From the NCBI GenBank assembly GCA_028280845.1, contig JANQKZ010000056.1, forward strand, positions 1 through 46,731: a DNA stretch of 46,731 bases, given 5' to 3'. The notes beneath the pieces are model-generated. The model ran no database searches. It was not told where the DNA came from and was given only the letters and a program-made list of their open reading frames with translations. Position numbers and translations under genes: made by a program. This DNA comes from Opitutales bacterium (lineage in GTDB: Bacteria; Verrucomicrobiota; Verrucomicrobiia; Opitutales; JABSRG01). This document shows, piece by piece, positions 6,501-39,192 of the stretch (position 1 is the first letter of the stretch; every line of letters begins with the position of its first letter).

Positions 6501-9500
6501 GAGAAGGTCACCTTGGCCCCCAGGTTGTCGTTCCCCATGCTGATAGTGGCACTCCCTGAAACCCACCAACGGCCCGTCTTGGAACTAGCTGCTCCAGAGA
6601 AACTGCCTTTGAATCGGTTGAAGACATTAAAACTTCCGGAAAAGCTCACCGACATCCGTCGACTGCTATCAATGGAAATCGAAAAGCTACCCGAGGCATT
6701 CACAATGCTCGCAATGGTGAAGCTGGCTGAAACTGAAAAGGAAAATGTTCCGTCTGAGGCGATGGAGACGCTCGAACTCAAACGCATGATGCTGATATTA
6801 AAGACCCGAAGGCTCGCGTCCATGGTACCATGCACCCCGCTCAAAGTTAACCATCCAAAGCGTTCTCTGAAAACGGTTATACTCATGGATCCACTGATTT
6901 GTGCCACAGAACGCGACCCAAGAGAGATATTGATCGTGCCGGTTAAGTTAAAGTATCCCGTTGAGAAATTGACATAGCCAGAGAGGCTCGCGGTTTGCCC
7001 AAGGATGCTCAAGGTGAGCGGATCGCTCGAAGGGATATCAATCAGACCACTGGAGCTGATGCTGATGGAACCGCTTAAGGTGATCCCGATAAAGGATACT
7101 TTGGCTCCGGTAATACTGAACTCGGCACTTCCTGCCGCTATTCCAAAACGGGTAGAGTTCGTGGTATTAATGTTCAGAGTGAAGGTTCCACGAATCGTCA
7201 TGATACTGCTGCTGATCACATCAACCGATACATCAATGCTCAGAGCTACGCCTTGATTATTGAGAAAAAAGTCTCCGCTGATCGAAAAAGTTGCACCGAA
7301 GAGATCCAGGCTGGCACTCGCAGTGATCGTGATGGAATTGGACGAGAGGATGAAGGTGAAGGTACCATTCATCTGGAAGCCACCTACGGTGAAACTCGTT
7401 GAAGTATCCAGGAAGAAGGTGCTGGCCGTTATTGAAGTTCCAGCTACTGTCCTGGACCGGTTTGTCGTATTTAAGGCAATGGTAAAACTGGCGTCGGCTC
7501 CAAGGGAAAAGTCGAAATCACTCGACCCGTTGGTTCCCAGAGATGCGGTGAAAACCGCCGCAATACCCCGATGATTACCTCCATAAAACGTTATCCCACC
7601 CGAAATATTGAAAGAGAATAACGTCGTCCCTCCGATCACCACGGACATGGAGGCAGATACTGTCAGGGAGACCTGACTTGATGTTATTTCAAAGGTAAAT
7701 GAACCTGAAAGCGTCTCCGAAAGAATAGTTAAGGAACCGGTCGCCTGAATCAGGAAGTAGGGCCCCGCGGGCAGGTTGATTCCTAAATCGCTAAAGCTAA
7801 CCTGCTGATTTATGGTATTGATCTGTAAAACAAAGGACCCTGACAGTCCGAAACCAAAATCGCTGAAGGCGTTACTTGAGAGGGATAGGTCGAGTGCGGC
7901 AGCCAATCCATCCTGATTCACAAGAAATCCACCCGAGACTGAAAAGGTCATCAAATCCCTTCCTCCGACGTGAACCGAGAAAGATAAGGAGGCCTGCATA
8001 ATGATCTCTGAGGTCGATACTTCGATGTCCAAAGACCCAGTCATGGAAATTCCCTGAATGGTTAAATTAACATCAGTGGCCTCGATAATGAGATAAGCGC
8101 TTCCGGTCGCAGAATTGATACCCCCGGAAACACTAAAGGTTTGAGCTCCTTGCCCTTCAATAAACCCGGCCGGGATAGTAAATGATTGAGTCGTTCCCGT
8201 GGTATTGATCCTCAACAAAAAGGACCCGGATAAACTGACTCCCCAGGATGCAGGAAAATTGGTGCTCAAACTCAGGGAAAATTCAGCCGCAAAACCGCTG
8301 CTGCGAATCGCCATATAGGCGAGGACAGAAAACTCCAGAATCGGGTCGTCCGCCTCTCCCAGGGTCAAGCTACCGGTCAGTAAGACATCGAGCCCGGAAT
8401 TATTGATTTGCATCGCAAAGAGGCCGTCAAAGTAGAACCAATCCGAACCACCGTTCTGGAAGGTGACCGACCCATCAATGATCACACTGAAGGTCTCTGC
8501 CTGGAGTAGAAAATCCTCCTCCGAACCAAACAGAGTCAACGTCTCTGTGATGTCTGTATCCGTCGTATTTAAGCGGAAGGTGGCATTGCCGCTTGCAAAG
8601 ATTCCCAAGGACTCCAGATCCGAAAAATCAGGCACAATGGTCAGTACCCCCCAGATCGCCGTCCCGCTTCCGCTCGAATCAATGGTAAGGGTACCTTCTA
8701 TTTCAAGCAGGTCCCCCAGTAAGCTTAAGCTAACTCGCCCATCCAGGTCGGCGGTGAAGGTTTGATCGAGAAAGGTAAGGGTCAACGTTCCCTCGATGGT
8801 CAAAGTGGCAAGCCCCAGCGCGTCCATATCCACTCCACCAGTAATAATAATTTGAACCTCACCGGCGGGATTATCTTCATCCCCTGTGGCGCTACCTCCA
8901 AACAGAAACTGGATGGACCCATAAAAAGTAAGTACCGGGTCATCAGAGGGCAGTTCGCTCAAAAACAGGAGTGTGCCGCTCCCACTGCCCACATTGGACA
9001 GGTCGGCGTAGAACTTCATGTTCAGGGATAAGGAGTTACCAAAGGTGGCAACCGCATCGATCAAGAAGCGTCCCTCTGTATCGAATAGTATATCGATATC
9101 GGCTCGGAAGGCATTCTCCGAAGCATAGATGGAGAACAGCGTCGCTCCCCCCTCAAAGCGCATCGGCTGGCTGAAAGCATCAAGAAACGAACCAGTTGAT
9201 GTAGCTTGTTGGTTGATGACGGCCTCAGTCAGCAGGTCCTGCCATTCCTCAAGGGATAGCTCGTTCTGCGGCTTGAACGCATCACTGTCCAGCTCCTTCG
9301 GATCGGTTATGGAGGGTAAGGTGGTATTGAAGGTAACACCGGCCCGGAAACCTGTTATGGCCAGACCGCTGATTGGTTCTAGGACCTGCGGACTATCTAC
9401 TTCAACGTAACCCTGCAGGGGGCCGAGCTCTGATAGGCCGAATCGAGCCTGGAAACCAGTTCCCGCCGCTGTGGTAAAACCTCCTGTAATCCCACCATAC

Positions 9501-12500
9501 AGCACCTTCTCAGCCACCGGGGTAACCAGGTCTGAGTTATCGATTACATTGCCATCCGCATCAAACCGAAGGATGGCCAGGAAGAGATCCATCTCGATGG
9601 TCCCTCCGAACAAGTCGCCTTCGATCCCAACGCCAATGGAAGCAAAGGAGGTGATCGGAAATTTACCATCGATCAGGTCGCCTATATCGATGACCACTCC
9701 TTCCAGGCTTCCAGTGAAACTCAAATTGGATAAACCATGAAGCCCGCTGACCGTGGCGGAGAAAATCAGGGAGAAATCAAAGGGATTGTTATTAAAATCA
9801 GGCCAAACAACCGCTAACTCAGATATCTCGATTGGCAGCCAATCGGGCCACTTAATATCAGCAAACCCAGGTAGGGACAAATCTACCCCGAACCCATCCA
9901 GTGCCACTAAATCCCCGTTTGACCCAATCCCGAAATTCAAGGCAGTCCCGGTAAAGCCAGCCAGGCTCGGGAAAGTGGCACTCAGGGAGGCAAACTCAGC
10001 AATGTTTTGCCCCGCTCCGGGATTGAAATTCAAGCTAACCCCAGTCGCCTCCAAGCTCATGATGGAATTAAAGTCCAACACGACGGATGACACATTCGCG
10101 CCTTCCAGACTCAGGCTGTCCAACTGCGGCGCGTTCCCTGCCGTGCTGATCTCCATGGCAAAGTCCAGAGAAGCATCTGTTACGGAAACGTTATCCCCTA
10201 TATTGAAGCTGACGCTCAAGGTCGCTGCCACATCCAGGATTCCCGAATCGGCATCGAAACTTCCACTGATGCTGATGCCCGCACCTCCGACCACAGAATT
10301 TAACTCTCCGTCGCTTTCCAGGGATATACTACCTCCAAAATCAGTAACAAAAACACCGTTTTGATATCCACCCAGAGTAATCGACCCGGATAGAACGGCC
10401 GTACTACCAACCGAAAGGTCTGAAAAACCAATGGTGATGGGACCGAGATCAATCGGAACCACTTCCCCATTGTCTATCGCAATCGTAAAGTCAAAGGTGT
10501 TGACCCCGTCCTCCGATAGCTCCGAGGTTCCTATCGTCAGGATGGGGGTAAAGGGCAAATCGCCCATCGCATCAAAATTGAAAGCACCGGATACGCTTAA
10601 AGTAAAACTGGTAAAATCACTCTTCCCTCCAGCTGTGGTTCCAAACACCACCTCAATGCCATTGATGGTGAACGGAAGAAAACTTGCAATGCCCAAGCTC
10701 TCCGCCAGGCCGGCCGTGTCCAGGCTCAGCGAAGCCAATTGAAAGGAGGCGTCAGCCCCCACGACCAGATCCGTTACGGTTCCACTTACATTCAGGGCAG
10801 GCAGACTGGCCGTTACAGAGGCTACGCTGACAATCGTCTGATCCGGGGGACCCGTCGGGTCATAGTTGAAGTCAATCGAGCTTCCGGTAACGACAAAGGT
10901 GTCCTCAATATTCACCTCCAGGGTGGCAAATCCCAGACTGAAGGCCTTCGAATTCAGATCAAAGGAACCTTGAATCGTGGTCACCGTCGCAGAGGAACTC
11001 CCGCCTTCAAACAGCGATGCACTATCCGCTCCTATTCCAAAGGTGCCGCTAACTGAGCCTCCAATGGTGTAGTTCACATCGGTCAGCGTCACGGATGGAT
11101 TCACGACTGTGAGCACCCCACCGACGACAATATTTTCTGAATAGGTAAAGGTGGCCTGCCCCAGAGAAAAGCCGTCCAACCGAACACTGAGATTATCCAA
11201 AGTGAAACTCGGCTGCGTCCCATCCGCAGACTCGAGCGCAAGAATCGTGATACCAACCGAGCTGACCGATGCCACCTCTTGGGAGCTGTCCCCAGCCGGA
11301 TCATAACCAAAGGCAATATCGGAAGCGCTCAGGTCAAAAACACCATCGGCGTTCATCTCAAGACTGCCAAGGGTCAATGAAAAGGCCTTGGACTCCAGAT
11401 CAAAGCCACCCGATACCGTAGTTACCGTAGCAGAGGTGCTACTCCCTTCGAACAGGGTAGCATTGGCGGCCGAAAGTTCAAAAGTGCCGGTCGGAGCAGA
11501 GCCAGCGGTGTAATCTAAACCGCTTACGGATAACTCAGGATTCACAATCGTAAGGGCATCCCCGACGCTAATACTTTCGCCAATCGAGAATGAAGCGTTC
11601 CCCACCGAAAATCCATTCTGGCGAACTGAGATATCGCTGAGGGAGAAGGTCAGCGGGTCGCCCCCATCCGAGGGAAGGAAAGCCGTAATTTCCAGTTGAG
11701 CAGAGGCGATGGAGGCGATCTCTTTCGAAGCATCGGCTTCTTCACGTTGGTAGGCAATGGCAGCCCCTGATGCAGAAAGCGTAAAGACACCGGCTACGGC
11801 GATGTCCAATTGATCCACGGTCAGGCTGAACGCATCCCCGGAGAAATCAAAACTACCGGTCAGGGCATCACTATCTGCATCATCTCCATCCGTCACACTC
11901 GCCGTGTAGTCGGTTTGGTTTGGATTAAACAGGGCTGATCCGGCAGCAAAATCCAAAGTCCCCGAAAGCGTGTTGGCTACCATATCGCCGGTCAGGCTCA
12001 GATCCAGGCTGGCGGTGGTCAGGCTGAACAGGGTGTCCCCTCCTCCTCCATTGAGCGCCAGGGAATCGATGTTGGCGTTCGCATCAATTGTGATGGCGGT
12101 ATCATCAAAGGTCGTCGATATCGCCAGATTGATGGGGCTGGACCCGGATTCGAAGAAATCCAGGGTCATACTTGCAGAAGCCGATCCGGAAAAATCCCCG
12201 GGGGCAAAATCCACCGAAAAACTGGCGCTATTTAGACTGAACCCGAGAAGGGTGATTCCCGAGGCATCCCCAGTCAGCGTCCAGGTATCGGCCCCGGAAT
12301 CATAAGCTCCTGTAATGCTGATGGCAGCCGCCATTCCGCTGGCGTCCTCAAAGCCAGGAAGCTCCAGCGTTCCCGTGAGCGCCAAGGCAAGCGACTGATC
12401 TACCGAAAGGGCAACCAGGTCCGCATTGAGGGAGTAAGTTCCTGTAAAATCGAGAGAGAGGGTGCCCACGGTGGCCGAGAGATCCAGAGTAGCCGTTCCA

Positions 12501-13957
12501 CTCGCCGTCGGGACAAAAACCGTCGTCAAATTGCCGGGAATGTCGACCAGTCGAACATCTCCTCCGGAATTATCGAGGTTTACCTGGACATCCAGGTCGA
12601 CCGAGCCCGTTCCGGACAAGCTGCTGTTTTTTCCGCCTAGTGTTCCACTCCCACTCAAAGACCCGGCACCCGCCAGGGCGAGCAGGACTGCCCCGGATGA
12701 AATGAAGATTCCATCTGCATCCAGTCCAAAGACCAGATCAAGGCTGAGCGAGGCGAGCAGGTCCAGAGTGCCATCCAGGGATGGGCTGTCCGATAAGCCC
12801 TGGAGTACCCCCTCAGTGGAGTCGTCAAAATTGTCCCCGGGATCACTGCTTAAACCAGCTGACAGAATGTTGCTATAAGACAGCTCAATCAGAACACTGC
12901 CGGAGGAGGCCGGGATATCGCGGCCAGAGTCGGTGAATCCGCCAAATATGGAATTCACTTCAAATCCAGCCGACTCGAGGCTGGTCACGAGGGCCGATAC
13001 ATTAGCATCCCCGAGAAAATCACCCAAGTCCAAGCTAAAGGTATCCAGGTCAAAAAGGTCACTCAGCGAATCCGCCAAAACCGGCAAACTCAGGCTGTCT
13101 GCCCCAAAGGTGGAAAGATTAAAGAGCCCCAACCAATCCCCAAACTGACTTTCCAAGTCATTTAATGCCGAATCCACAGATTCCGCTAAGGTAAAGGATG
13201 TATCTCCTGTAATAGACGTGCTCCCCACCGTAGGACTCAGAGAGGCAGGAGCATCAATGGTATCAAAGGTCCCGGATATCGAGACACTTGTGGTGACAAA
13301 ACTGAAGGAGACCGGCAGGGGGGGTGCCGGTCCAATCAAATTGAAGTCCAGGGTTCCCGCCACAGTAATCTGTTGCGAAACCGAAAGCGCGTCGGCTGTA
13401 GTCGAATCGGCTATCTCCAGGAGGAGTGTGCCGGAAGCCGTGTTGACAAAGGTTCCAGTGACTGAGGTCGTGCCTGCCGTTTCCACGGCCGCTCCGGGGG
13501 AGAATGTCCCCGAGTTGATCACATTTCCATCGACGGTTCCCTCCACCGTCACCGTCCCTCCGTTTGCAATGTTGAGCTCCGGGGTCGCCAGGGTTCCGTC
13601 AACGGAAAGGACCCCACCGGTTACCGCGATGGTTTCTTCACTATCGATTGCACTCAAACTGACCTCTCCGACATCATAGGTAATGGTCTGATCACCGGCA
13701 AGGTCTTCAATAATGACCGAGTCCCCGTCTTCAGGAACCCGTCCCAAGTCCCAATTTGCGGCATCACTCCAATTACCCCCTGAGGCCGAATCCCAAGTTA
13801 TGGTTTCACCGGTTCCAGCACTGGATGGCACCCCGGAGGGGATCGCCATATCTACGACAATCGGGGCAGCACCGTCGGCAGACAAGAGAATGCGCGGCTC
13901 CAATTGTTCCACACGAAAGGTGTGTGGATCGGAAAACTGTCGGGAGAGCGTAGACAA
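3518..13957 (-). CDS. Giant LEPR-XLL surface/secreted protein (3479 aa)
   Basis: A 3479-residue extracellular-type protein. The N-terminus carries the LEPR-XLL motif (LEPRILLSADG, residues 19-29), a signature named from the start of very large bacterial proteins. No hydrophobic Sec signal core precedes it. Residues about 50-240 contain a GNWSDAANW-type beta module. Three tandem repeats of about 148 residues begin near residue 710. Residues to about 2540 are low-complexity beta-strand repeats rich in Ser, Gly, Thr and Phe. Four repeats near 2560-2960 pair an SdrD/B-like fold with EF-hand-type loops (DVNGNGELDDGE, DTNQNGVLDATE), suggesting calcium binding. A helical region, a Calx-beta-like section and an acidic tail (EEDEEDEEDGDD) end it. 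There are no RTX nonapeptides. The TTG start at 13957 has GAGGA 7 nt upstream and a stop lies just upstream in frame. It is divergent from the export operon, its likely exporter. Its activity is unknown; adhesin or surface fibre is a guess. Confidence 0.9.
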   Translation of the reverse strand: MSTLSRQFSDPHTFRVEQLEPRILLSADGAAPIVVDMAIPSGVPSSAGTGETITWDSASGGNWSDAANWDLGRVPEDGDSVIIEDLAGDQTITYDVGEVSLSAIDSEETIAVTGGVLSVDGTLATPELNIANGGTVTVEGTVDGNVINSGTFSPGAAVETAGTTSVTGTFVNTASGTLLLEIADSTTADALSVSQQITVAGTLDFNLIGPAPPLPVSFSFVTTSVSISGTFDTIDAPASLSPTVGSTSITGDTSFTLAESVDSALNDLESQFGDWLGLFNLSTFGADSLSLPVLADSLSDLFDLDTFSLDLGDFLGDANVSALVTSLESAGFEVNSIFGGFTDSGRDIPASSGSVLIELSYSNILSAGLSSDPGDNFDDSTEGVLQGLSDSPSLDGTLDLLASLSLDLVFGLDADGIFISSGAVLLALAGAGSLSGSGTLGGKNSSLSGTGSVDLDVQVNLDNSGGDVRLVDIPGNLTTVFVPTASGTATLDLSATVGTLSLDFTGTYSLNADLVALSVDQSLALALTGTLELPGFEDASGMAAAISITGAYDSGADTWTLTGDASGITLLGFSLNSASFSVDFAPGDFSGSASASMTLDFFESGSSPINLAISTTFDDTAITIDANANIDSLALNGGGGDTLFSLTTASLDLSLTGDMVANTLSGTLDFAAGSALFNPNQTDYTASVTDGDDADSDALTGSFDFSGDAFSLTVDQLDIAVAGVFTLSASGAAIAYQREEADASKEIASIASAQLEITAFLPSDGGDPLTFSLSDISVRQNGFSVGNASFSIGESISVGDALTIVNPELSVSGLDYTAGSAPTGTFELSAANATLFEGSSTSATVTTVSGGFDLESKAFSLTLGSLEMNADGVFDLSASDIAFGYDPAGDSSQEVASVSSVGITILALESADGTQPSFTLDNLSVRLDGFSLGQATFTYSENIVVGGVLTVVNPSVTLTDVNYTIGGSVSGTFGIGADSASLFEGGSSSATVTTIQGSFDLNSKAFSLGFATLEVNIEDTFVVTGSSIDFNYDPTGPPDQTIVSVASVTASLPALNVSGTVTDLVVGADASFQLASLSLDTAGLAESLGIASFLPFTINGIEVVFGTTAGGKSDFTSFTLSVSGAFNFDAMGDLPFTPILTIGTSELSEDGVNTFDFTIAIDNGEVVPIDLGPITIGFSDLSVGSTAVLSGSITLGGYQNGVFVTDFGGSISLESDGELNSVVGGAGISISGSFDADSGILDVAATLSVSFNIGDNVSVTDASLDFAMEISTAGNAPQLDSLSLEGANVSSVVLDFNSIMSLEATGVSLNFNPGAGQNIAEFASLSATFPSLAGFTGTALNFGIGSNGDLVALDGFGVDLSLPGFADIKWPDWLPIEISELAVVWPDFNNNPFDFSLIFSATVSGLHGLSNLSFTGSLEGVVIDIGDLIDGKFPITSFASIGVGIEGDLFGGTIEMDLFLAILRFDADGNVIDNSDLVTPVAEKVLYGGITGGFTTAAGTGFQARFGLSELGPLQGYVEVDSPQVLEPISGLAITGFRAGVTFNTTLPSITDPKELDSDAFKPQNELSLEEWQDLLTEAVINQQATSTGSFLDAFSQPMRFEGGATLFSIYASENAFRADIDILFDTEGRFLIDAVATFGNSLSLNMKFYADLSNVGSGSGTLLFLSELPSDDPVLTFYGSIQFLFGGSATGDEDNPAGEVQIIITGGVDMDALGLATLTIEGTLTLTFLDQTFTADLDGRVSLSLLGDLLEIEGTLTIDSSGSGTAIWGVLTIVPDFSDLESLGIFASGNATFRLNTTDTDITETLTLFGSEEDFLLQAETFSVIIDGSVTFQNGGSDWFYFDGLFAMQINNSGLDVLLTGSLTLGEADDPILEFSVLAYMAIRSSGFAAEFSLSLSTNFPASWGVSLSGSFLLRINTTGTTQSFTIPAGFIEGQGAQTFSVSGGINSATGSAYLIIEATDVNLTIQGISMTGSLDIEVSTSEIIMQASLSFSVHVGGRDLMTFSVSGGFLVNQDGLAAALDLSLSSNAFSDFGFGLSGSFVLQINTINQQVSFSDLGINLPAGPYFLIQATGSLTILSETLSGSFTFEITSSQVSLTVSASMSVVIGGTTLFSFNISGGITFYGGNHRGIAAVFTASLGTNGSSDFDFSLGADASFTIALNTTNRSRTVAGTSITASTFFLDTSTSFTVGGFQMNGTFTFILSSNSITITASASLDLFGATFSISGDFFLNNQGVALSIDVSVDVISSSIMTIRGTFTLNINTTNSTRFGIAAGSAEFSITGAKVSFIGITLSGSISISSSGLIDIPSSDPLTLSILGQTASLSGYVNFSTGYFNLTGTINISLGSRSVAQISGSMSITVFRERFGWLTLSGVHGTMDASLRVFNISIMRLSSSVSIASDGTFSFSVSASFTIASIVNASGSFSISIDSSRRMSVSFSGSFNVFNRFKGSFSGAASSKTGRWWVSGSATISMGNDNLGAKVTFSAYLSNFSGFSTTVSGSAWARVRILKKTIGIEGSFSASIGSSGIATLRVSGRVCVIICASAHKTIHMNFKTGRIYLSDIGDATVFLDVNGNGELDDGEPFTITNDVGEFDFLAATFNEDDDALATTLGALSIYDTNQNGVLDATEGQLLVTGGTDIDTGESNPDTAVLDDSLLTQNIGLVGATVFWDANLNGQLDAGEFEVITDENGSFTFVSEQDETEAAKLGSLAAYDLDGDGQISEDEGLFYAEGGTSVTTGEANDGVILLVDATEVGDSGLVGGLIFLDANSNGVWDEESEPSTYSHADGHYTFRPEDKESHQASLGYLSEFDSNGNGVIDPEEGSLVRLGGELIGDEDERDVNLHFDANEPRGYLIYSDAVVFLDLNGNGLLDSGETSTMTDEAGFYSFLTGDEISSDLGELEAFDTNGNGIIDLEEGSFVSFGGIDNRTGTANTETVISPASLAGSGFNNSTTHITHLLYDLMVNRGYSQIDGEEIISDALGFVPGTSPLNIIPIEELADFYDGTEYTFNEDEARLLAQSSKLSTVNITIDQLIEILRPDLTPVQVDDIVTTAINDILIDAVENDPNDDQDIYVDENGEFNDRDADLDLTQADTVRAILARVEELAGVDIDDEFANGMAITLANINALALAYFEAETLKITTAFARLKILMQTVYFESAREAFLQQIPASEFVDRFTGDNLLSLLNTFEIAAENEEPLIEAANQLEGPSTEPLVVDFQIFDLDGLSSLVEVAFQDIDGLLVDFELKTEDGVNYTLTLFPRTDIRTAGQLEIRADDLHVQNSEAIQRIDYRILPIVSAEDPRLVLLDGALFMEFDISLDAPATFDVFVDYNIGAQSAVGPDTSESLTGSASFAAGQQSQTLAVPFSYSNAVRQGGTQLDVEVLNQDGAAIRNQSNLSSFTYNTDEAIIPFLSAEAGDTEAVSAVGFDPFSIDWLAIEEDEEDEEDGDDRASSDDDSLDMRGDAVDVVDAARRAGLNPGF
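5050..6290 (-). repeat. Four EF-hand/SdrD-like repeats in the giant protein
   Basis: Four units of roughly 95-105 residues each begin with a beta strand leading into a DxNxNGxxDxGE-type loop. These are VFLDVNGNGELDDGE, VFWDANLNGQLDAGE, IFLDANSNGVWDEE and VFLDLNGNGLLDSGE. Each is followed about 45 residues later by a second Asp-rich loop such as DTNQNGVLDATEG or DLDGDGQISEDEG. The pattern is that of calcium-binding EF-hand or dockerin-type loops within SdrD/B-like modules. Confidence 0.8.
10500..11835 (-). repeat. Three tandem ~148-residue repeats inside the giant protein
   Basis: Equivalent phrases recur at even spacing: GDAFSLTVDQL near 11830, SKAFSLTLGSL near 11383 and SKAFSLGFATL near 10942. 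The periods are 447 and 441 nt. Each unit also carries an SVRxxGFS segment, a VVNP or IVNP segment and an LFEG-SSATVTT segment; the third unit diverges after its first half. The repeats are divergent at DNA level, so they are old duplications. Confidence 0.8.
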
Positions 13958-14189: not shown

Positions 14190-15746
14190 ATGAAAAATGC
14201 CTTCCTTATCCCCCTAGGCCTGCTGATTGCTGGTTGGCTTCCGCTAACTCTTGCTGCAAATCCATTGACTTTGGAGCAGGCCATGATGCGAGCCTTCAAA
14301 GATAATTTAGGGCTTCAGATTGAAGCCATTGAACCCGAAATTGCCCGTGACACCTTGGGAGCGGAATGGGGAGGGTTTGATCCAAATTTCTTTTTTGAGG
14401 CCAACTATCTGGATTCGTCCAAGCCTCAGAATACTCTCGATTTCTTATCTACCGGACAGGTCGTTACAGATCGTGTCTTCGAGGAAGAAAACAACCTGTT
14501 GAATACCGGAATCGGGGTCACCACTCCCTATGGGACTGAAGTGGAATTCCTGACCCGGGTCTCTGAACTGGACAATTCCGTAAACCGGGAAAGCCCGGTT
14601 GCCATCTTTAACCCGGAATACGAAGCCTTTATGGGGGTTAATATCACCCAACCCCTGCTGAAAAACTTTGGTTACCATAACAATATGAGCGGCGTAAACC
14701 TGGCCCGTCTCGGCATTTCTATCGCTGAGTATGACCAGCAGATCGCAGTGACAAATGTCGCGATCGAAGTGGTGAATACCTACTGTGATCTAGCCTTTGG
14801 AGAGCAGAATCTAAAAAATAAGCAGAATTCCGTCGAGCTGGCCCAGCGCTTTGTCGAAGAAACAGAAAAGCGGATCGAGGCAGGTTTCCTCAAGCCCATC
14901 GATTTAGATGAGGCCCGTGTCCAATTGTCGGAGAGTCAGGAAGAAGTTATGCTCGCGGAAGACTACGTCCGGGAGCGCCGCACCATGTTGGGTCAACTCC
15001 TTGGCATTGAGGACTTCAACACCGCCAGCGCAATCACCACGATCCTTCCCCGATTGCTATGGGACAAGGCTTCTCCGGTGGAAAGCATGGTGGATACGGC
15101 TAAATCCAGCCGGCCGGATTACCAGAGAGCCACCGCGGCGGCTGAACAGGCCGAAATCCGACAAAATTATGCCCGTAACCAAAAAATGCCTCAACTGAAC
15201 TTCCTCTTTTCCTACGGATTGAATGGACTCAGTAACTCTTACGGGAACAGTTACGATGATTTATTTGATGGGGAAACCCCTACTTGGAGCGCAGGAATTG
15301 TTTTCTCCGTTCCTATCGGAAGAATGCAGGGACGGGCTGAGTCCATGACCCAGGAGCGCCGCAAGCGGCAGGCACAACTGGACATCAACCGGATTGCTCA
15401 AAGCATCGATCTCGACGTCCGCAATGCGGTGGCACGGCTTCAGGCTCTCGAAGCCCAGGTAGAAACCGCAAAAGCTTCCGTCCGCCTCGCGGAAAGCACA
15501 CTGGAAGCGGAAGCCAAACGCCTGGAAGTGGGACAAACCACGAATTTTCGGGTCTTGCAGATTTTTGATAAGTTAACCGATGCCCAAACCCGTCAATTGG
15601 CTGGTGAGGTGGAACTCCAAAAAGCTACGGTCCACCTGTGGGCGGTGACAGGGGTCATCTTGAACAATTTCAACTTTGTCCTCGAGGACAGTTCAGACAA
15701 TAAAGAAGGTTACTGGGACTGGTTGCTCAATCGCCAGAATTACTAA
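14190..15746 (+). CDS. TolC-like outer-membrane efflux/secretion channel
   Basis: A 518-residue outer-membrane factor. A signal peptide (FLIPLGLLIAGWLPLTLAAN) is followed by the family start NPLTLEQAMMRAFKDNLGL, then two halves rich in long amphipathic helices. The halves include an AQRFVEETEKRIEAGFLKPIDLDEARVQL segment near residues 220-250 and a second, equivalent RLEVGQTTNFRVLQIFDKL segment near 450. This duplicated alpha-barrel pattern is typical of TolC. It is the first gene of a tight operon with two HlyD-type adaptors, an M50/HlyD protein and a SecA-like ATPase, so it is probably the outer-membrane exit of that machine. A multidrug efflux role is possible, but no RND or ABC pump is encoded nearby. 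Confidence 0.9.
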   Translation: MKNAFLIPLGLLIAGWLPLTLAANPLTLEQAMMRAFKDNLGLQIEAIEPEIARDTLGAEWGGFDPNFFFEANYLDSSKPQNTLDFLSTGQVVTDRVFEEENNLLNTGIGVTTPYGTEVEFLTRVSELDNSVNRESPVAIFNPEYEAFMGVNITQPLLKNFGYHNNMSGVNLARLGISIAEYDQQIAVTNVAIEVVNTYCDLAFGEQNLKNKQNSVELAQRFVEETEKRIEAGFLKPIDLDEARVQLSESQEEVMLAEDYVRERRTMLGQLLGIEDFNTASAITTILPRLLWDKASPVESMVDTAKSSRPDYQRATAAAEQAEIRQNYARNQKMPQLNFLFSYGLNGLSNSYGNSYDDLFDGETPTWSAGIVFSVPIGRMQGRAESMTQERRKRQAQLDINRIAQSIDLDVRNAVARLQALEAQVETAKASVRLAESTLEAEAKRLEVGQTTNFRVLQIFDKLTDAQTRQLAGEVELQKATVHLWAVTGVILNNFNFVLEDSSDNKEGYWDWLLNRQNY

Positions 15747-15751
15747 TCCAG

Positions 15752-16534
15752 ATGCGCTGCATGGTTCACCCTTTTCGACCCTGCCAGGACATGCTCCTCC
15801 CTTTCCTTATCTGGTTTATTGCTTTTGCAAGTCCGGCTGGGGCCAACACGGACATCACCGCCAATGCGCTCATTTTTCCGAAAGAGGAGATTGAGCTCAG
15901 CTTCGCCACCCCCGGAATCCTGAAGAAAATTCATGTGGAGGACGGGGAGACGGTCCAGGCCGGCCAGTTGCTCGCCGAACTGGAGGATGAATTGGAGCAA
16001 TTAGAATCGGCTCGATATGAAAAAATCCTGGAGAAAAAGCGCTTTGAGTATGAAGGGTCGGCGCAATTGGTGGCGGATAGAATCATCAGCAACGACGAGG
16101 CCCTCGAACGAAAACTTGAATTCGATATCGCCCAACTCCAGGACAAACAGGCCAAGGAAAATCTTCGACGCAAACAGATCGTTGCCCCCCTCGACGGGGT
16201 AGTGGTCGCCCACCATGGCGACGCCGGAGAGTGGGTCAGCCTGGGATTGGCCGTGCTTGAGTTAGTCTTCATCGATGAGGTGTTCGCCCAGCTTTTACTT
16301 CCAGACAAGATCGGATTGACCCTTTCCAAAGGCGACCCGGCCAAGGTCACCCTCCCCTCACTTGACCCGGATAAGGAATTTGAGGGCAAAATCGATTTTA
16401 TTGATCCGAGGATTAATGCCTCGAGCGGCCTCATGAGGATTCGGGTCATCATCCCCAATCCGGATCATATCATCCGACCCGGAATGCGAGCCGACGTCCG
16501 GCTGCTCCCCAGATCTGGAAGCACAAACCCCTGA
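15752..16534 (+). CDS. Short HlyD-type periplasmic adaptor (membrane fusion protein)
   Basis: A 260-residue membrane-fusion protein. A signal peptide (MLLPFLIWFIAFASPAGA) precedes a split lipoyl/barrel-sandwich domain: IHVEDGETVQAGQLLAELED near residue 50 and IVAPLDGVVVAHHGDAGEWV near 145. A short coiled-coil hairpin (about residues 70-135) lies between them, and a beta-barrel with IDPRINASSGLMRIRV completes it. Such adaptors bridge an inner-membrane complex to TolC. It starts 5 nt after the tolC-like stop. The hairpin is short for the family, and the protein seems fully periplasmic or membrane-associated, without a cytosolic domain. It is one of three lipoyl-type adaptor modules encoded in this operon. 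Confidence 0.87.
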   Translation: MRCMVHPFRPCQDMLLPFLIWFIAFASPAGANTDITANALIFPKEEIELSFATPGILKKIHVEDGETVQAGQLLAELEDELEQLESARYEKILEKKRFEYEGSAQLVADRIISNDEALERKLEFDIAQLQDKQAKENLRRKQIVAPLDGVVVAHHGDAGEWVSLGLAVLELVFIDEVFAQLLLPDKIGLTLSKGDPAKVTLPSLDPDKEFEGKIDFIDPRINASSGLMRIRVIIPNPDHIIRPGMRADVRLLPRSGSTNP

Positions 16535-16539
16535 CCGCG

Positions 16540-18357
16540 TTGAAGGACTTCCTCCAACCCGGCGACCTTGAAAAACTACAGGCACTTCGCCAATTCAAAG
16601 GCCTGCCCAAATCGTTTTGGCCGGAATATGTCCAGTGGTTTAAAAACTCGATTCCAGGGGTGGAGGAAGCCTGGGTAATTCTTGCTCACGGGAACGCCGG
16701 TCAATGGCAAATCATTGCCGGAACGCTCATGGTGAAAGAAGCGATTCCAATGCAGGAGATGGCCTCGGCGGTCCAGAGTTTAGCAAGCGTCCCCCCCAGC
16801 CCATGCTCCATCTCTGCGGGAGGATCCCTTGGAGCCCTCAGCTTAGCCATTGGGGATAATGAGCCACTCTGCGCTCTTCTCATTTCCTGGGGAGGCTCTC
16901 CCGCCAACCTGGAATCAGTCCTCCGGTTTCTCATTTTTACCTCAGATGTTCCCCTGGCCTTTAAACGGTTCAATGAAGGAGAGGCCGAACGTTGGAAGGA
17001 CACTCCCAGTTTTGACACCCTTAAGGTGGCCACCAAGGTATTCGAGCAGGACCAGTTTTTGCCCTCGGCCATGGCGCTCTGTAACGAGTTAGCCAAAACC
17101 TTTGGTTCGGATATGGCTTTCCTGGGTTGGCATCGGAACGGTTACACCCGCCTGGTCGCCGCCAGTCATCTCGAAAAGATCGAAACGAAAATGGAAGCCG
17201 CGAGATTAATTGAAGCGGCAATGGACGAAACTTTCGATCAGGATGATGAAATCACCTGGCCCTCAATCCAGGACTCGATCCGGATCACTCGCGATCATGA
17301 GCAGTACGCAGCCACCTTGGCCCACCCACAGTTAGTTTCCCTGCCGCTACGGAGCCACGGAAAAACGATTGGGGTTCTCATGCTCCAACGATCCGGAGTG
17401 CCCTATCACCGGAAAGAACTGCTCAGCCTGCGCCTGATCGGTGACCAGGTAGGCAGTTACCTCGAACAACTCGATACAACCGGTCGCCCCTTCCCCCACC
17501 GCCTTTGGAAAACCACCCGGCAAAGCCTGAAGGGGTTCCTCGGGCCGACCCATACCGGGGCTAAACTGCTAGGCCTCTTCATCTCGATTCTCCTCCTCGC
17601 CGGATTCCTTATCCCCGTTCCTTACAGGGTGGAAGCTCCCTTTGTCGTGCGCGCCTCATCCCAGGCCTTTATCCCCGCTCCCTTCAGCGGATACCTCGAA
17701 TCGATCGAGGTGGCAACGGGTAGCCAGGTCGACGAGGGTCAATTGCTCCTCAAATTAGATTCTACCGAATGGACTTGGGAAGCCGCCCGGGCCCAGGCGG
17801 ACCTGGACCGCTATCAAAGCGAAGCCCTCCGGGCTGAGAGTGAAGGAGAGTTTGCCGCCATGCAGGTGTTTCTGGCCCAGGCTGAACAAGCTTCCGCCAT
17901 CCTCCAGCTTGCTCAAATTCGCTTGGAAAGCGCAGAGGTCAGAGCGCCGTTTGCTGGAATTATATCAGAAGATGGCGATCTCGAGGAGCAATTGGGAGCC
18001 CCCGTCACCCAGGGTGACCTGCTCATGAAAATCGCCCGCCTCGAGGACCTCTATCTCGTCTTAGACATCGATGAATCCGACATCTCCGATGTCGCGATTG
18101 GCCGCCCCGGGGTAGCCTCGTTCGCTTCTGCCGTGGGAGAAACCTATCCGCTCGAGATCCGCCTCTTGCACCCCACGGCCTTTCCTAAGGAATCGGGCAA
18201 TATCTTCTTTGCTGAGGCAGATTTTACGGCCCAGCCTGAGGACTGGTGGCGGCCAGGCATGACCGGACTCGCCAAGATTGAAGCGGGGCGCCGCAGCTTC
18301 ATCTGGATTATGACTCACCGCGCGATCGATTGGCTTCGTCTCTTTTTCTGGATTTAA
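16540..18357 (+). CDS. GAF domain-TM-HlyD adaptor fusion
   Basis: A 605-residue inner-membrane adaptor. About residues 172-311 have the look of a GAF domain: ALCNELAKTFGSDMAFLGW, then an AAMDETFDQ helix, then LVSLPLRSHGKTIGVLMLQR. A membrane helix follows at about 342-364 (LLGLFISILLLAGFLIPV). The periplasmic part is a HlyD-type barrel-sandwich: FSGYLESIEVATGSQVDEG, a coiled coil and VRAPFAGIISEDGDLEEQLG. The C-terminal beta-barrel ends in a second hydrophobic stretch (LRLFFWI). The first in-frame start is TTG at 16540, 5 nt after the preceding stop. A cytosolic GAF-like domain on an export adaptor suggests a docking or sensing role on the cytoplasmic side. The HlyD part is certain; the GAF call rests on pattern similarity. 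Confidence 0.85.
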   Translation: MKDFLQPGDLEKLQALRQFKGLPKSFWPEYVQWFKNSIPGVEEAWVILAHGNAGQWQIIAGTLMVKEAIPMQEMASAVQSLASVPPSPCSISAGGSLGALSLAIGDNEPLCALLISWGGSPANLESVLRFLIFTSDVPLAFKRFNEGEAERWKDTPSFDTLKVATKVFEQDQFLPSAMALCNELAKTFGSDMAFLGWHRNGYTRLVAASHLEKIETKMEAARLIEAAMDETFDQDDEITWPSIQDSIRITRDHEQYAATLAHPQLVSLPLRSHGKTIGVLMLQRSGVPYHRKELLSLRLIGDQVGSYLEQLDTTGRPFPHRLWKTTRQSLKGFLGPTHTGAKLLGLFISILLLAGFLIPVPYRVEAPFVVRASSQAFIPAPFSGYLESIEVATGSQVDEGQLLLKLDSTEWTWEAARAQADLDRYQSEALRAESEGEFAAMQVFLAQAEQASAILQLAQIRLESAEVRAPFAGIISEDGDLEEQLGAPVTQGDLLMKIARLEDLYLVLDIDESDISDVAIGRPGVASFASAVGETYPLEIRLLHPTAFPKESGNIFFAEADFTAQPEDWWRPGMTGLAKIEAGRRSFIWIMTHRAIDWLRLFFWI

Positions 18358-18358
18358 G

Positions 18359-20521
18359 ATGGCCACCCCCGAGACTTTTTTCAGCGACCAATGGCACCAG
18401 TTAGCGGATTCAAAAATACGCCTTCGAGGGGATGTCCGGGTAACCCGCCAACGATACCATGGCAAGCTCTGGTTTCTCCTTCGGGACCCGCTCCGGAATC
18501 GATTTTCCAGGCTGAGGCCGGAGACATACCGGTTTCTCATGCTGCTCGACGGTCACCGCACCCTGCACCAGGCCTGGGAAACGATCTGGAAGAATCATCC
18601 TGATTCGGCTCCCAGCCAGGTCGAAGTGGTCCGGGTCCTGGCACACCTCAACCGCCTCGGGTTACTGGTGTCCGAAAAAGGCCGGGACCCCTACCAGATT
18701 TTCTCACAATTTAAGGAAGAAAGGGGGCGGGAATTAAAAAACCGGTTTCTCCATTTTTTCTTCATCCGCATTCCTCTGTGGGACCCAGACTCCTTACTTA
18801 AGTCCATCAATTCTATTTCCAAGGGAATCTTCAGTTGGGCCGGGTTCGCGGTTTGGATATTGGTCATGGTGTGGGGAGGTATCGCCGCACTCAACCAATC
18901 CAGGGATCTCTTTGCCCAGGCCCAGGGAATAATAGCTCCCTCCAACCTACCCCTGCTTTACCTGGTGTGGGCCGGTATCAAATTTCTCCACGAAATGGGA
19001 CATGCCTGCGCAGCTCGGCGATGGGGGTGTGAAGTTCACCAGATGGGGGTGATGCTGCTAGTGTTAACCCCCATTCCCTATGTGGATGTCACTTCCAGTT
19101 ACGCACTCCGTTCAAAGTGGAAACGTTTCGCCATAGATGCAGCCGGCATGTACGTAGAACTGTTTATAGCGGCCATCGCTGCCCTCATATGGGCCAACAC
19201 CGGTCAGGGACTGGTCAATCAAATGGCCTACAACATTATTTTCCTGGCCTCGGTTTCCACCCTGCTCTTTAACCTGAATCCCCTTCTCCGTTTCGATGGC
19301 TATTATATGCTTTCCGACGCGCTGGAATATCCGAATCTGCACCAGAGAAGTTTTCAACAGATCAAATACCTGGCTGAGCGCTTCCTCTTCGGTGTAAAGC
19401 AGAGCATACCCGTAGCCCGATCCACCGCCGAGGGAATCGGACTGGTCGGGTTCAATCTCAGCAGCACTGCGTATCGTATCTTCGTCCTCGTCGTTATCAT
19501 CGGTTTTGTCGCCGGTCAGTTTTTTGAAATCGGTTTGATTCTCGCCGCTTTCGGGCTCCTGGTCTGGGGGCTTTTACCCCTGGTCAAGTTTTGCCGCTAC
19601 GTCCTTTCCTCTCCTGATCTCGCTCGTAATCGACTGCGCGCCCAGTGGGTGACATTCGGGGGCCTGGCTGGCCTTTTGCTGGTTCTCGCCCTGGTCCCCC
19701 TACCTACTTTTTATCGGACCCCCGGGGTACTGGAAAGTATTGGCCGATCCGAGGTGATCGCAAAGTCCGATGGATTTCTCCTCGGACCCCCGGCTGACAA
19801 TCGCAATATTGTATCCAAGGATCAACTACTCCTGAAACTGGTCCAACCCGATTACCATGTTGACGAAATCCGCCAGGAGGCCCGACTCCGGGAAATCGAG
19901 CAACGTCAACGGATCGCCTTTTCGGAGGAACCTGCATATTTAACTGCTCTACAATCCCAGGCAGATTCCATTCAGCTCCAGCTGGACGCCATAATCGACC
20001 GCAAGCAAAATCTGGACGTAAGGGCTCCCCGCAGCGGCCGTTGGGTATATACCCCTGACTCCCTTCACCCGGGCAGCTGGATCAAGCGAGGCACCGGCTT
20101 GGGCGAAATCATTGATCCTGACCGATTTCGATTTACCGCCATTGTAAGCCAGAACGAAGCCGCAGTGTTCTTTCAAGAGCCGGTTAAACGGACCTCCGTC
20201 CGGCTTCGGGGAGAGGCAGGTATTTCCATGAACGCAACAGATATCAGGATCTTATCGGTTGAACAGACCTTTCTTCCCACCGCTGCCCTGGGGTGGTTAG
20301 CGGGAGGTGCCCTCGAGGTAGACTTCCAGGACACTTCCGGAACTAAAACAGTAGAACCCTTTTATCTTGTCTATATCGAGTTGGAGAGAAATCCACAAAC
20401 CGACCCGCTCTTCTTTGACCTTCGCCGTGGCGTAGCCCGCTTCCAACTCGAACCCAGACCCCTCCTCCAGCAGGCCTGGGTACGAATCAGGAATCTTCTT
20501 CAACGCCGGTATCAACTTTAA
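18359..20521 (+). CDS. PqqD-like / M50 site-2 protease / HlyD fusion
   Basis: A 720-residue polytopic protein. The N-terminus (about residues 20-105) resembles the PqqD winged-helix fold, which binds leader peptides in RiPP pathways: LWFLLRDPLRNRFSRL, YRFLMLLDGHRTLHQAWE and VVRVLAHLNRLGLL. The membrane core is an M50 site-2 protease with zinc motif HEMGH (H211, E212, H215) and a distal Asp (D313) in NPLLRFDGYYML, so the catalytic set looks intact. After several more helices a periplasmic barrel-sandwich follows (VIAKSDGFLLGPP, then LDVRAPRSGRW). It starts 1 nt after the preceding stop. The combination suggests a membrane hub that recognises a substrate's N-terminus, may clip it, and links to the adaptor-TolC conduit. 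That mechanism is inference. Confidence 0.88.
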   Translation: MATPETFFSDQWHQLADSKIRLRGDVRVTRQRYHGKLWFLLRDPLRNRFSRLRPETYRFLMLLDGHRTLHQAWETIWKNHPDSAPSQVEVVRVLAHLNRLGLLVSEKGRDPYQIFSQFKEERGRELKNRFLHFFFIRIPLWDPDSLLKSINSISKGIFSWAGFAVWILVMVWGGIAALNQSRDLFAQAQGIIAPSNLPLLYLVWAGIKFLHEMGHACAARRWGCEVHQMGVMLLVLTPIPYVDVTSSYALRSKWKRFAIDAAGMYVELFIAAIAALIWANTGQGLVNQMAYNIIFLASVSTLLFNLNPLLRFDGYYMLSDALEYPNLHQRSFQQIKYLAERFLFGVKQSIPVARSTAEGIGLVGFNLSSTAYRIFVLVVIIGFVAGQFFEIGLILAAFGLLVWGLLPLVKFCRYVLSSPDLARNRLRAQWVTFGGLAGLLLVLALVPLPTFYRTPGVLESIGRSEVIAKSDGFLLGPPADNRNIVSKDQLLLKLVQPDYHVDEIRQEARLREIEQRQRIAFSEEPAYLTALQSQADSIQLQLDAIIDRKQNLDVRAPRSGRWVYTPDSLHPGSWIKRGTGLGEIIDPDRFRFTAIVSQNEAAVFFQEPVKRTSVRLRGEAGISMNATDIRILSVEQTFLPTAALGWLAGGALEVDFQDTSGTKTVEPFYLVYIELERNPQTDPLFFDLRRGVARFQLEPRPLLQQAWVRIRNLLQRRYQL

Positions 20522-22468
20522 ATGGAAACCCCCTCCAAACTGGCAGGGAGTTTTCCCTCCCAAAAACCTCCACTCTTTCCCAAAGGACTGGATGCGTTTG
20601 CCTTTCGAGTTCAGGGCGCATGGAAGCGATTTCGATTTAGGTCTTCCTCCCTCTTGAATCAGGCGGACGGCATTCTGGACCAGGCCAACCGATTCTCCTC
20701 CCTCAGTGACCCCGAGCTGGATCACCTCCAGGTCAACATCAGGAGCACCTTCCAACGAGAGGGACTCCAGAATCCAACCCACTGCGCGGAGGCGCTCGCC
20801 CTCTTAATTGAGTATTCCGACCGCACACTAAAGCTCAGACCCCACCCGGTTCAAGTCGCGGGCACCTTGGGTCTCCTCCATGGCTATATGGTTGAGCTCG
20901 CTACCGGGGAAGGAAAAACCCTTACTCTGGCCCTCGCCGCAATCCTCGCCGCCTGGCAGGCGAAACCTTGCCATGTCCTTACCGCTAACGACTACCTTGC
21001 CTCACGTGATGCAAAAAGGATGCGTTCCCTTTTTAACAGATGCGGTATTAGCAGTTCGTACATCGTCAGTACTACGGAGGCCGTGGAGCGAAGACGCGCT
21101 TATGAACAATCAGTCGTCTATACCACTACCCGTGAGCTCGTGGCCGACTTTCTCCGGGATCGATTGACACTGGAGGACGATGCCCAGGCCTCCCTTCGGA
21201 TCATTCGCCAGATGGAGGGAAATCCCAGGCCGGAGCAAGCCGTTTTAAATGGGCTCCACTTCGTCCTGGTCGATGAAGCGGATAGCTTGATGGTGGACGA
21301 AGCGGTGACTCCTCTGATCATCAGCCAGAAGCAAGAGAACTCCTTTCTGAATCAAGCCGTAGAGGAAGCAACCGTGTTGGCCGGAAGCATGAAACGCCAA
21401 GCTCACTTCCAAGTAGATGAAACCTTTCAAGTGATTGATTTCGATTCCGCAGGTCGGGATTACCTGGCAGGCCTCCCGGTAGAAAAAAGCCCTATTTTGA
21501 GAAATCCTCGATGGAGGGAGCATTTTCTGCGAGACGCCCTCAGCGCTCGGGAGTTCTACCACCACGATCAACAGTATCTGATCCGAGACGGGAAAATCCT
21601 TATTATTGACGAAAATACGGGGCGAGTCATGCCGGACCGCAATTGGCAAATGGGTATTCACCAGGCGATAGAAATCAAAGAGGGGTTAACACCATCAGAG
21701 CCCTCCCAAACCATGGCGTCCATCAGTTTTCAGCAGTTCTTCAGGATGGTTCCCAAACTGGCCGGAGTAACGGGGACTGCCTGGGAGAATCGAGGCGAGT
21801 TCTGGCAAGTCTACGCCAAGCTGGTGTTTCAGCTGCCCACCCATAAACCCACGGTCCGAACGAAATACCCGTCCCGCTATTATTCAACCCGGGCTGAAAA
21901 GTGGACTGCTGTGGTCGAAGCCATCCGGACGGAGATAGAATCCGGGCGATCGGTCTTAGTTGGCACTCGAACCGTCGAGAGTAGCGAGGCTCTGGCATGG
22001 CACCTGGAGAAAGCCCAACTGCCCTTTGCTCTCCTCAATGCCCGACAAGATGAAGCGGAAGCGGAAATTATCTCCCGGGCAGGCCAACAGGGACAAGTTA
22101 CGATCGCCACCAATATGGCGGGACGGGGGACGGACATTCAGCTTTCCCAGGAAACCCTGGCCGCGGGAGGCCTCCACGTCATTTTAACCGAGCCCCATGA
22201 AGCCAAGCGCATTGACCGGCAATTCATGGGCCGGGCAGCCCGGCAGGGTGATCCAGGATCTGTCCAATACCATTTCTCCCTCGAGGATCGAGTGATTCAG
22301 AAATTTTGTCCCCAGTGGCTTCGGCCGGTCTTGAAGCGGTCGAGGAAAATACTCCTGCCCGTCGCCGGTGGGGTGGTTCGGCTTTCCCAGCGAAAGGCGG
22401 AAGCATTTAATTTCCGCCAACGGGTCAATGTCTTGCGCCAGGACCGGTGGTTTGCAGAGCATCTTTAA
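20522..22468 (+). CDS. SecA-like export ATPase, C-terminally shortened
   Basis: A 648-residue SecA-family DEAD motor. It has Walker A ATGEGKT (residues 127-133), a VDEADSLMVDEAVTPLII block (D251-E252), ENTGRVMPDRNW and GLTPSEPSQTMASISFQQFF of the preprotein-crosslinking/NBD region, LAGVTGTAWENRGEF, NMAGRGTDI (531-539) and QFMGRAARQGDPGS. Canonical SecA is about 800-900 residues; this one stops roughly 50 residues after NBD2. Most of the helical scaffold with the two-helix finger, the helical wing and the C-terminal zinc linker are therefore missing. Its ATG follows the upstream stop directly. It is a paralogue dedicated to this operon, not the housekeeping SecA. It would supply the ATPase activity for an export complex that lacks an ABC transporter. 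Confidence 0.92.
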   Translation: METPSKLAGSFPSQKPPLFPKGLDAFAFRVQGAWKRFRFRSSSLLNQADGILDQANRFSSLSDPELDHLQVNIRSTFQREGLQNPTHCAEALALLIEYSDRTLKLRPHPVQVAGTLGLLHGYMVELATGEGKTLTLALAAILAAWQAKPCHVLTANDYLASRDAKRMRSLFNRCGISSSYIVSTTEAVERRRAYEQSVVYTTTRELVADFLRDRLTLEDDAQASLRIIRQMEGNPRPEQAVLNGLHFVLVDEADSLMVDEAVTPLIISQKQENSFLNQAVEEATVLAGSMKRQAHFQVDETFQVIDFDSAGRDYLAGLPVEKSPILRNPRWREHFLRDALSAREFYHHDQQYLIRDGKILIIDENTGRVMPDRNWQMGIHQAIEIKEGLTPSEPSQTMASISFQQFFRMVPKLAGVTGTAWENRGEFWQVYAKLVFQLPTHKPTVRTKYPSRYYSTRAEKWTAVVEAIRTEIESGRSVLVGTRTVESSEALAWHLEKAQLPFALLNARQDEAEAEIISRAGQQGQVTIATNMAGRGTDIQLSQETLAAGGLHVILTEPHEAKRIDRQFMGRAARQGDPGSVQYHFSLEDRVIQKFCPQWLRPVLKRSRKILLPVAGGVVRLSQRKAEAFNFRQRVNVLRQDRWFAEHL

Positions 22469-38989: not shown

Positions 38990-39192
38990 AGGCAGCGAGA
39001 TGGTGATAACTTTTAAAAACGGCACCGCCCTGGCAAGGCTCTGGCACCCCGGACTAACTCATTCACCTACATTATTAATTTTCTATGAAATAAAACCTGC
39101 CTTAATAAGCAAAAATTAAGAAAAACCCACCTTGATTAAGAATAAGTTATTCATAAGAGCGTTAACCGCAAATTGGGCAAGAGGGAGATGTA
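38990..39192. promoter_or_regulatory. AT-rich divergent promoter region
   Basis: About 200 bp separate the divergent giant beta-helix gene and kynU. The central part (about 39060-39170) is visibly A+T-rich compared with the flanking genes, with runs such as TTAATAAGCAAAAATTAAG. This fits a region with back-to-back promoters. I cannot defend specific -35/-10 pairs. Confidence 0.4.

Follow-up and report, generated by a model that had tools for sequence, protein, structure and literature searches.

The window, that is, the whole stretch of 46,731 nucleotides analysed here, contains a cassette on the forward strand whose genes run in the order TolC, HlyD, GAF-HlyD, PqqD-M50-HlyD and truncated SecA-like ATPase, with the gene of a LEPR-XLL giant lying divergently beside them. 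The cassette begins with a TolC-family outer-membrane channel of 518 residues (14190..15746, +; Pfam OEP, E 9e-42), followed by a short HlyD/RND-type adaptor of 260 residues (15752..16534, +; Pfam and NCBIfam) and by a GAF-HlyD adaptor of 605 residues (16540..18357, +; Pfam). The next gene encodes the protein that is the main subject here, a PqqD/RRE-M50-HlyD fusion of 720 residues (18359..20521, +) characterized from its open reading frame, Pfam, NCBIfam, AlphaFold2 and structure comparison; the frame starts with ATG, comprises 720 codons of protein and has exact coordinates. A SecA-like ATPase of 648 residues closes the cassette (20522..22468, +; Pfam, NCBIfam and sequence reading). The putative giant cargo protein, of 3479 residues and with a LEPR-XLL N-terminus (NCBIfam, hydropathy), is encoded at 3518..13957 on the reverse strand.

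The SecA-like ATPase retains both nucleotide-binding halves and the preprotein cross-linking domain. Pfam gives no scaffold or wing match in it at E 0.05, and reading of its sequence indicates that it ends soon after a QRKAE segment, within the helical scaffold; the scaffold, wing and two-helix finger taken to identify SecA or SecA2 downstream of NBD2 were not found in it. No ABC, RND or MFS transporter was detected among the cassette genes of the window by Pfam and NCBIfam, nor any ABC transporter among the annotated genes directly adjoining four alphaproteobacterial cassettes. The combination of ABC, HlyD and TolC by which type I secretion is recognized was not found at the cassette, a statement that covers linked genes and leaves an unlinked ABC transporter possible. 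This whole-cassette setting, with a SecA-like ATPase and no ABC transporter, goes beyond what the first-pass annotation of this DNA drew on.

The same genome contains a second full cassette on its contig 1 (18000-37000), adjoining a second giant whose LEPR-XLL lies in an open frame of 8919 codons. Two M50-HlyD copies and two LEPR-XLL matches above cut-off, and no others, were found in this genome, each cassette being paired with an adjacent, divergent LEPR-XLL giant. The fusion protein and its M50-HlyD paralogue are 37% identical which, together with the presence of three homologous domains, argues against the 720-residue frame being due to chance. Elsewhere in the window, a protein of 2269 residues (32216-39025, −) combines TIG, right-handed beta-helix and InlB-repeat-like domains, and displays a hydrophobic N-terminal stretch in place of LEPR-XLL.

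Among the 80 closest related loci, searched for cassette genes only, the SecA-like gene is next door in 69 of the 74 with room downstream, and GAF-HlyD is present in 67 of the 70 with room upstream. Their titles point to Verrucomicrobia, Kiritimatiellae, Planctomycetota, Lentisphaerae, Fibrobacter and Spirochaetales, to relatives of Nitrospirota, and to Desulfobacterota-type organisms, Elusimicrobia, Omnitrophota and Proteobacteria. Alphaproteobacterial plasmids also bear the cassette, with giants of ~8,000 to 10,600 residues, one of them annotated as LEPR-XLL, and the culturable laboratory strains Neptuniibacter caesariensis MED92 (L138) and Roseateles cellulosilyticus P8 (L134) carry cassettes of the window type.

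Public plasmid records label the SecA-like gene as prepilin peptidase or DEAD/DEAH helicase (17204-19120 in L067 and 17133-19118 in L066), annotations that have kept the system hidden in such records. In some loci (4338-6584 in L222, and also L105 and L125), next to an M50 gene that is intact, this gene gives a poor score when read in one frame, with frameshift, assembly error or divergence as possible causes. In many cassettes (L066, L067, L068), a small DUF3467 protein, possibly the chaperone of the giant, is encoded between the giant and the adaptor genes. Despite its presence in many related cassettes, DUF3467 was dropped as a core chaperone, having no match over cut-off in the genome of the window.

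Domains of the fusion protein

The first-pass annotation described a PqqD-like domain fused to an M50 protease and a HlyD module, and this three-part architecture is borne out by Pfam and NCBIfam matches and by fold comparisons. Pfam places Peptidase_M50 (PF02163) at residues 206-286, above cut-off (E 1.4e-9), and HlyD_3 at residues 554-616, slightly below cut-off (E 4e-4, 21.5 bits). In NCBIfam, residues 21-403 are best matched by NF041824, the daptide intramembrane metalloprotease (E 7e-47), with a score of 160.4 bits that does not reach the cut-off of 300 bits for this family, and the next named match is LiaK/YydH. The full-length AlphaFold2 model, built with 24 homologues (mean pLDDT 83.6, pTM 0.59), consists of a small N-terminal domain, a membrane-helix bundle and a periplasmic adaptor. 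As counted from the modelled helices, seven membrane spans would separate the N-terminal domain from the adaptor, in agreement with the N-terminus being in the cytosol and the adaptor in the periplasm.

The PqqD/RRE-fold domain comprises residues 19-106 (18413..18676, +), with three strands followed by three helices, as delineated from AlphaFold2, Foldseek, VIA and the Pfam matches of homologues. Pfam does not detect PqqD in the sequence of the fusion protein; among 65 homologous N-termini, PF05402 (PqqD) is found in 45, with a best value of 3.7e-9, TIGR03859 is found in 28, and NF041824 is matched by 14 of these N-termini on their own. No PqqD match was given by Pfam for the N-termini of the sister (B) clade considered below. 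When residues 1-114 were folded alone, from an alignment in which four rows from plasmid records were left out, the AlphaFold2 model (pLDDT 86.4) showed the order strand-strand-strand-helix-helix-helix and a winged-helix-like shape. Foldseek ranks PqqD 5sxy second for this model (prob 1.00, target TM 0.69), with leader-bound lasso-peptide RREs close behind. VIA gives Z 8.1 (rmsd 2.7 over 89) with 5sxy, and Z 9.2 and 8.9 with 6jx3 and 5v1v, respectively, both being lasso-peptide RREs solved with leader peptide; TigE, ThcOx, MccB and the PbtF RRE are also in its list. The assignment of a PqqD-like N-terminal domain is therefore upheld by the PF05402 matches of the 45 homologues and by a fold like those of 5sxy, 6jx3 and 5v1v. 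A comparable winged domain is present in carbamoyltransferases and oxygenases that rank among the top fold matches, so that leader binding cannot be proven from the fold alone.

In the 65 homologues, W38, R51 and W73, within the domain, as well as W12, just before it, are invariant, and Q87, L94 and L97 are nearly so. In known RREs solved with leader peptides, the leader is bound along strand 3 and helix 3. R51 lies in strand 3 of the present domain and Q87-L97 in its helix 3, edges which we take to correspond to the leader-binding ones of known RREs.

Residues 135-420 form the S2P/M50 membrane protease core (18761..19618, +; Pfam, AlphaFold2, VIA), in which residues ~140-325 match RseP (7w6y, Z 10.7), SpoIVFB (8vjl, Z 10.0) and MjS2P (3b4r, Z 9.7) by VIA. 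The HEMGH zinc/catalytic motif occupies residues 211-215 (18989..19003, +), and the catalytic aspartate D313 (19295..19297, +) is found in NPLLRFDGYY, which is of the NPxxxxDG type. H211, E212, H215 and D313 are identical in the 24 proteins of the first alignment and in 86/86 aligned homologues from many phyla, gathered by scanning 84,980 species genomes with two peptide patterns; HExxH is absent from both patterns, and one of them contains the Asp, so the count for D313 is partly determined by selection. Thus, the intact HEMGH...D site pointed out at first reading persists across homologues, loss of these residues, the first refuting outcome named there, was not observed, and the M50 core can be regarded, as judged from its sequence, as a putative protease whose catalytic site is complete.

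The periplasmic HlyD/MexA-like adaptor domain spans residues 447-702 (19697..20464, +; AlphaFold2, VIA). It follows a membrane helix and is modelled by AlphaFold2 as a barrel-sandwich with an alpha-hairpin, helices 497-523 and 525-550 being placed between the sandwich halves. VIA gives Z 13.5 with EmrA (4tko) and 13.4 with MexA (1vf7) for residues 448-707, and the matches to MexA, EmrA, AcrA and MacA range from Z 11.5 to 13.5.

The LEPR-XLL tag, its distribution and its dialects

The LEPR-XLL signal of the 3479-residue giant, FRVEQLEPRILLSAD, is located at 13856..13918 (−) and matches NF012209 (NCBIfam). No hydrophobic Sec signal peptide is present at the N-terminus of this protein, and the best 19-residue hydropathy in its first 100 residues is only 1.39, indicating that LEPR-XLL is not a transmembrane segment. 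Reading of the aligned LEPR-XLL tags likewise revealed no hydrophobic core. Forty tags yield the consensus (F/Y)x(L/V/I)ExLEPR(I/V/L)(L/M)LS(A/G)D, in which the positions after LL are S in 34/40, A/G in 39/40 and D in 28/40, with no strong consensus beyond, the search pattern having restricted the S position to S/A/D/G/E and left the next one free. Conservation of the tag ends just after the small-residue pair, as at a cleavage site.

In a phylum sample of 289 genomes, window-type M50-HlyD (>390 bits) and the accessory SecA-like ATPase (>540 bits) occur together in 19 genomes, neither being found without the other (Fisher 4e-30; since related genomes are not independent, this and the following co-occurrence p-values are guides only). 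LEPR-XLL is over cut-off in 18 of these 19 cassette genomes and in six others, four of which hold weak matches in short frames. In other groups, it was detected in 14/14 cassette-bearing genomes, chosen for having the cassette, several of which contain two to four tagged giants, some of them on other contigs, suggesting that one machine may serve several cargoes. Within a gammaproteobacterial order (195 genomes), LEPR-XLL occurs in 17 of the 25 genomes with window-type M50 (p 5e-15) and in 3 of the 23 with the sister type only (p 0.46). The association in this order is weaker, yet clear for the window type and absent for the sister type. Some of the eight genomes among these 25 that lack LEPR-XLL over cut-off have divergent tags, e.g., VEIMEERLLYSA.

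Two types of M50 protein were considered, A for the window clade and B for the sister clade without SecA-like gene; the bit-score thresholds between them were chosen by eye where the listed scores leave gaps, and the tree, with few rows, supports the split. B-type loci, as on an E. coli plasmid and in Azospirillum, have the order TolC-HlyD-HlyD-M50-HlyD beside a giant and no SecA-like gene, and their tagged, DUF4347-type proteins start with LESRQLFDGAALAET or LEPRFMFDAAGAIT. The tag ends as LExR-xx-S(A/G) with the A clade and as LExR-xx-D(G/A)A with the B clade. DUF4347 proteins are the natural comparison because they are present in all genome classes: the S(A/G) ending is found in 9/9 of the DUF4347 giants of A-only genomes, and D(G/A)A in 13/13 of those of B-only genomes carrying the tag. 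This count leaves out two gammaproteobacterial genomes assigned to A and B alike (G377, and G326, whose second copy is borderline), as well as the A-type genomes G389 and G482, where a DUF4347 protein shows a hydrophobic signal and no tag. DUF4347 proteins in four genomes without A or B machine have no tag, and at least two of them exhibit a hydrophobic signal-like N-terminus.

In the M50 tree of 24 proteins, each dialect falls on one side of a 100/100 branch. The agreement of dialect with M50 clade has a Fisher p of 2e-6, a value that overstates independence because the endings go back to one deep division of the M50 tree; the match is therefore one evolutionary observation, not twenty-two. 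The S-A dialect also occurs in the gammaproteobacterial A-clade loci L220, L223, L224 and L228, where the region read contains no SecA-like gene and whose genomes yield only SecA matches of housekeeping length. Since these loci keep the S-A ending, the dialect goes with the M50 protein rather than with the ATPase, and it is the M50 protein that is the constant partner of the tag. The SecA-like gene, considered as a candidate tag reader, was rejected on this ground. One window-type locus, L101, has LEPRLLLDA in place of S-A. Altogether, the link of the fusion protein to LEPR-XLL, anticipated by the first-pass annotation, finds support in the phylogenetic profile, in gene adjacency and in the agreement between signal ending and M50 clade.

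Further relatives of the cassette were observed. On enterobacterial plasmids (8671-10803 in L184; L187), a SecA-less relative lies beside a giant Ig-like protein that starts with LESRQLFDGAAL, and similar matches are found on Citrobacter and Hafnia plasmids. A third M50 clade (L232-L234, from G255, G228 and G225), found in relatives of the phylum of the window, comes with a more divergent SecA-like gene (~450 bits) and a weak DUF3467 match.

A proposed export route and its relation to known systems

These observations make it very probable that the cassette is an export machine for LEPR-XLL proteins and, with the same high confidence, that the tag and the fusion protein act together. The fusion protein itself is best regarded, with reasonable but not strong confidence, as the receptor of the signal at the inner membrane, and probably as the peptidase that removes it, in a secretion system linked to TolC and dedicated to LEPR-XLL giants. 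Recognition of the tag by the fusion protein is well supported indirectly, and its PqqD domain would be the element that binds the signal, a role considered somewhat probable. Cleavage of the tag by the M50 core is likely too, with chances rated close to balanced.

We infer the following sequence of events, including the cleavage site, the direction of transport, the energy source and the motor role of the SecA-like ATPase. The giant would keep its LEPR-XLL N-terminus in the cytosol, the tag standing in for a Sec signal. The PqqD/RRE domain would take the (F/Y)xLExLEPR part, as the RREs of RiPP enzymes take leader peptides, and the giant chain would then enter the M50 core or thread its way past it, the core probably cutting beside the two small residues that follow LL (S-A/G in the window clade). 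The fused HlyD domain, together with the GAF-HlyD and short HlyD adaptors, would couple to TolC and hand the chain over. Where present, the truncated SecA-like ATPase would drive the chain in the role that the ABC transporter has in type I secretion. The earlier suggestion that the tag is cut within the membrane is doubtful in its detail because LEPR-XLL is not a transmembrane segment, and it would therefore need to be threaded to the active site.

Alternatively, the tag might be recognized and not cut, the M50 core providing a channel through the membrane or a coupling element, and the tag being retained as an export signal. This would be consistent with the tag not being a transmembrane segment, and with a chain that needs a membrane passage in a cassette whose genes include no ABC, RND or MFS transporter. 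However, a relic would be expected to lose its catalytic residues somewhere, and H211, E212, H215 and D313 are kept in 86/86 homologues, while tag conservation stops at the small-residue pair as at a cleavage site; a retained tag is thus considered unlikely, though it deserves to be kept in mind. Passage of the giant across the inner membrane by ordinary Sec (SecYEG plus SecA), with the cassette exporting it from the periplasm and the M50 protein being an alternative leader peptidase, appears improbable. A SecA-like protein is indeed encoded, and those window-type M50 members without a SecA-like gene must use something else, but LEPR-XLL giants carry no hydrophobic Sec signal, which DUF4347 proteins without the cassette can have, and no scaffold or wing match is found in the SecA-like protein. 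In addition, the PqqD domain lies ahead of the first membrane helix, a position that, with seven modelled spans, would place it in the cytosol.

The fold match to RseP and SpoIVFB might also be read as that of an RseP-like regulated intramembrane protease acting on a signalling substrate, its fusion to an efflux adaptor being coincidental. The fixed position in an export cassette, the perfect co-occurrence with the SecA-like gene and the near-perfect one with LEPR-XLL, as well as the PqqD domain instead of PDZ, render this very improbable. Similarly, the best named family being the daptide protease NF041824 (E 7e-47), followed by LiaK/YydH, could suggest a RiPP pathway, daptide- or epipeptide-like, in which the fusion protein matures a small peptide. 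The score for NF041824 is nonetheless far below cut-off (160 of 300), the cassette is made up of export genes, and both the HlyD fusion and the giant cargo are at odds with such a role, which is hardly to be expected.

Returning to the receptor-peptidase reading, a broader proposal can be put forward tentatively, its chances being slightly under even: a widespread, unrecognised type of Gram-negative secretion, in which an N-terminal LExR signal would be read by an RRE domain and cut off by an intramembrane protease that has the periplasmic adaptor as its fusion partner, giants would leave via TolC, a truncated SecA-like ATPase would in most lineages provide the power in place of an ABC transporter, and at least two dialects would correspond to two protease clades. 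There is a fair chance that the cassette deserves the name of a separate secretion system. Some of the largest proteins of bacteria carry the named domain LEPR-XLL, and tying it to one cassette gives these proteins a concrete export pathway and explains their missing Sec signals. If true, the proposal would mean that leader recognition of the RiPP type also serves protein secretion.

In the literature searched, limited in scope and with few subscription journals and preprints, LEPR-XLL is known only as a named domain, with passing mentions in two papers. No account of how LEPR-XLL giants leave the cell was found there, and no link between M50-HlyD, a SecA-like protein and LEPR-XLL. The available passages of a tripartite-efflux review on M50 or SecA deal with SecDF/SecYEG only, with nothing relevant on M50. 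Nor did these papers describe the combination of domains or the link between machine and tag; RRE-M50 proteases, the LEPR-XLL domain and HlyD/TolC were already known.

As the name of the NCBIfam model NF041824 indicates, daptide biosynthesis already has an RRE-M50 protease, which shares with the fusion protein a PqqD/RRE-like N-terminus followed by an M50 core, aligned over residues 21-403. Unlike it, the fusion protein carries HlyD at its C-terminus, is encoded in an export cassette and has a proposed substrate of ~3,000 to 20,000 residues. The PqqD/RREs 5sxy, 6jx3 and 5v1v display the same fold, with R51, Q87, L94 and L97 of the present domain conserved at the leader-binding strand 3 and helix 3; on the contrary, the domain studied here is proposed to serve export and not peptide modification, with a putative ligand. 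With RseP, SpoIVFB and MjS2P, the protein shares the fold and the HExxH..D active site. Where these site-2 proteases have PDZ or CBS, it has an RRE domain; it is also fused to HlyD, and its likely substrate is a cytosolic tag, whereas usual S2P substrates are membrane helices.

HlyD and TolC are classic export components. Type I secretion (HlyB-HlyD-TolC) and tripartite efflux pumps resemble the cassette in their TolC channel, HlyD-family adaptors and very large cargo, the likeness to efflux adaptors extending to the fold (Z 12-13 to MexA, EmrA and MacA). In type I secretion the push comes from an ABC transporter, whereas the cassette has a SecA-like ATPase and no ABC, RND or MFS transporter, its adaptor is fused to a protease, and its cargo signal is N-terminal and not C-terminal. 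Accessory SecA (SecA2) also has the nucleotide-binding halves and the cross-linking domain, and is a companion to large surface-type cargo; the SecA-like ATPase differs in its length of ~650 residues, in ending in the helical scaffold, and in travelling with TolC, HlyD and M50 and not with SecY2. Among known families, the LEPR-XLL domain NF012209 would be the cargo tag of this cassette system.
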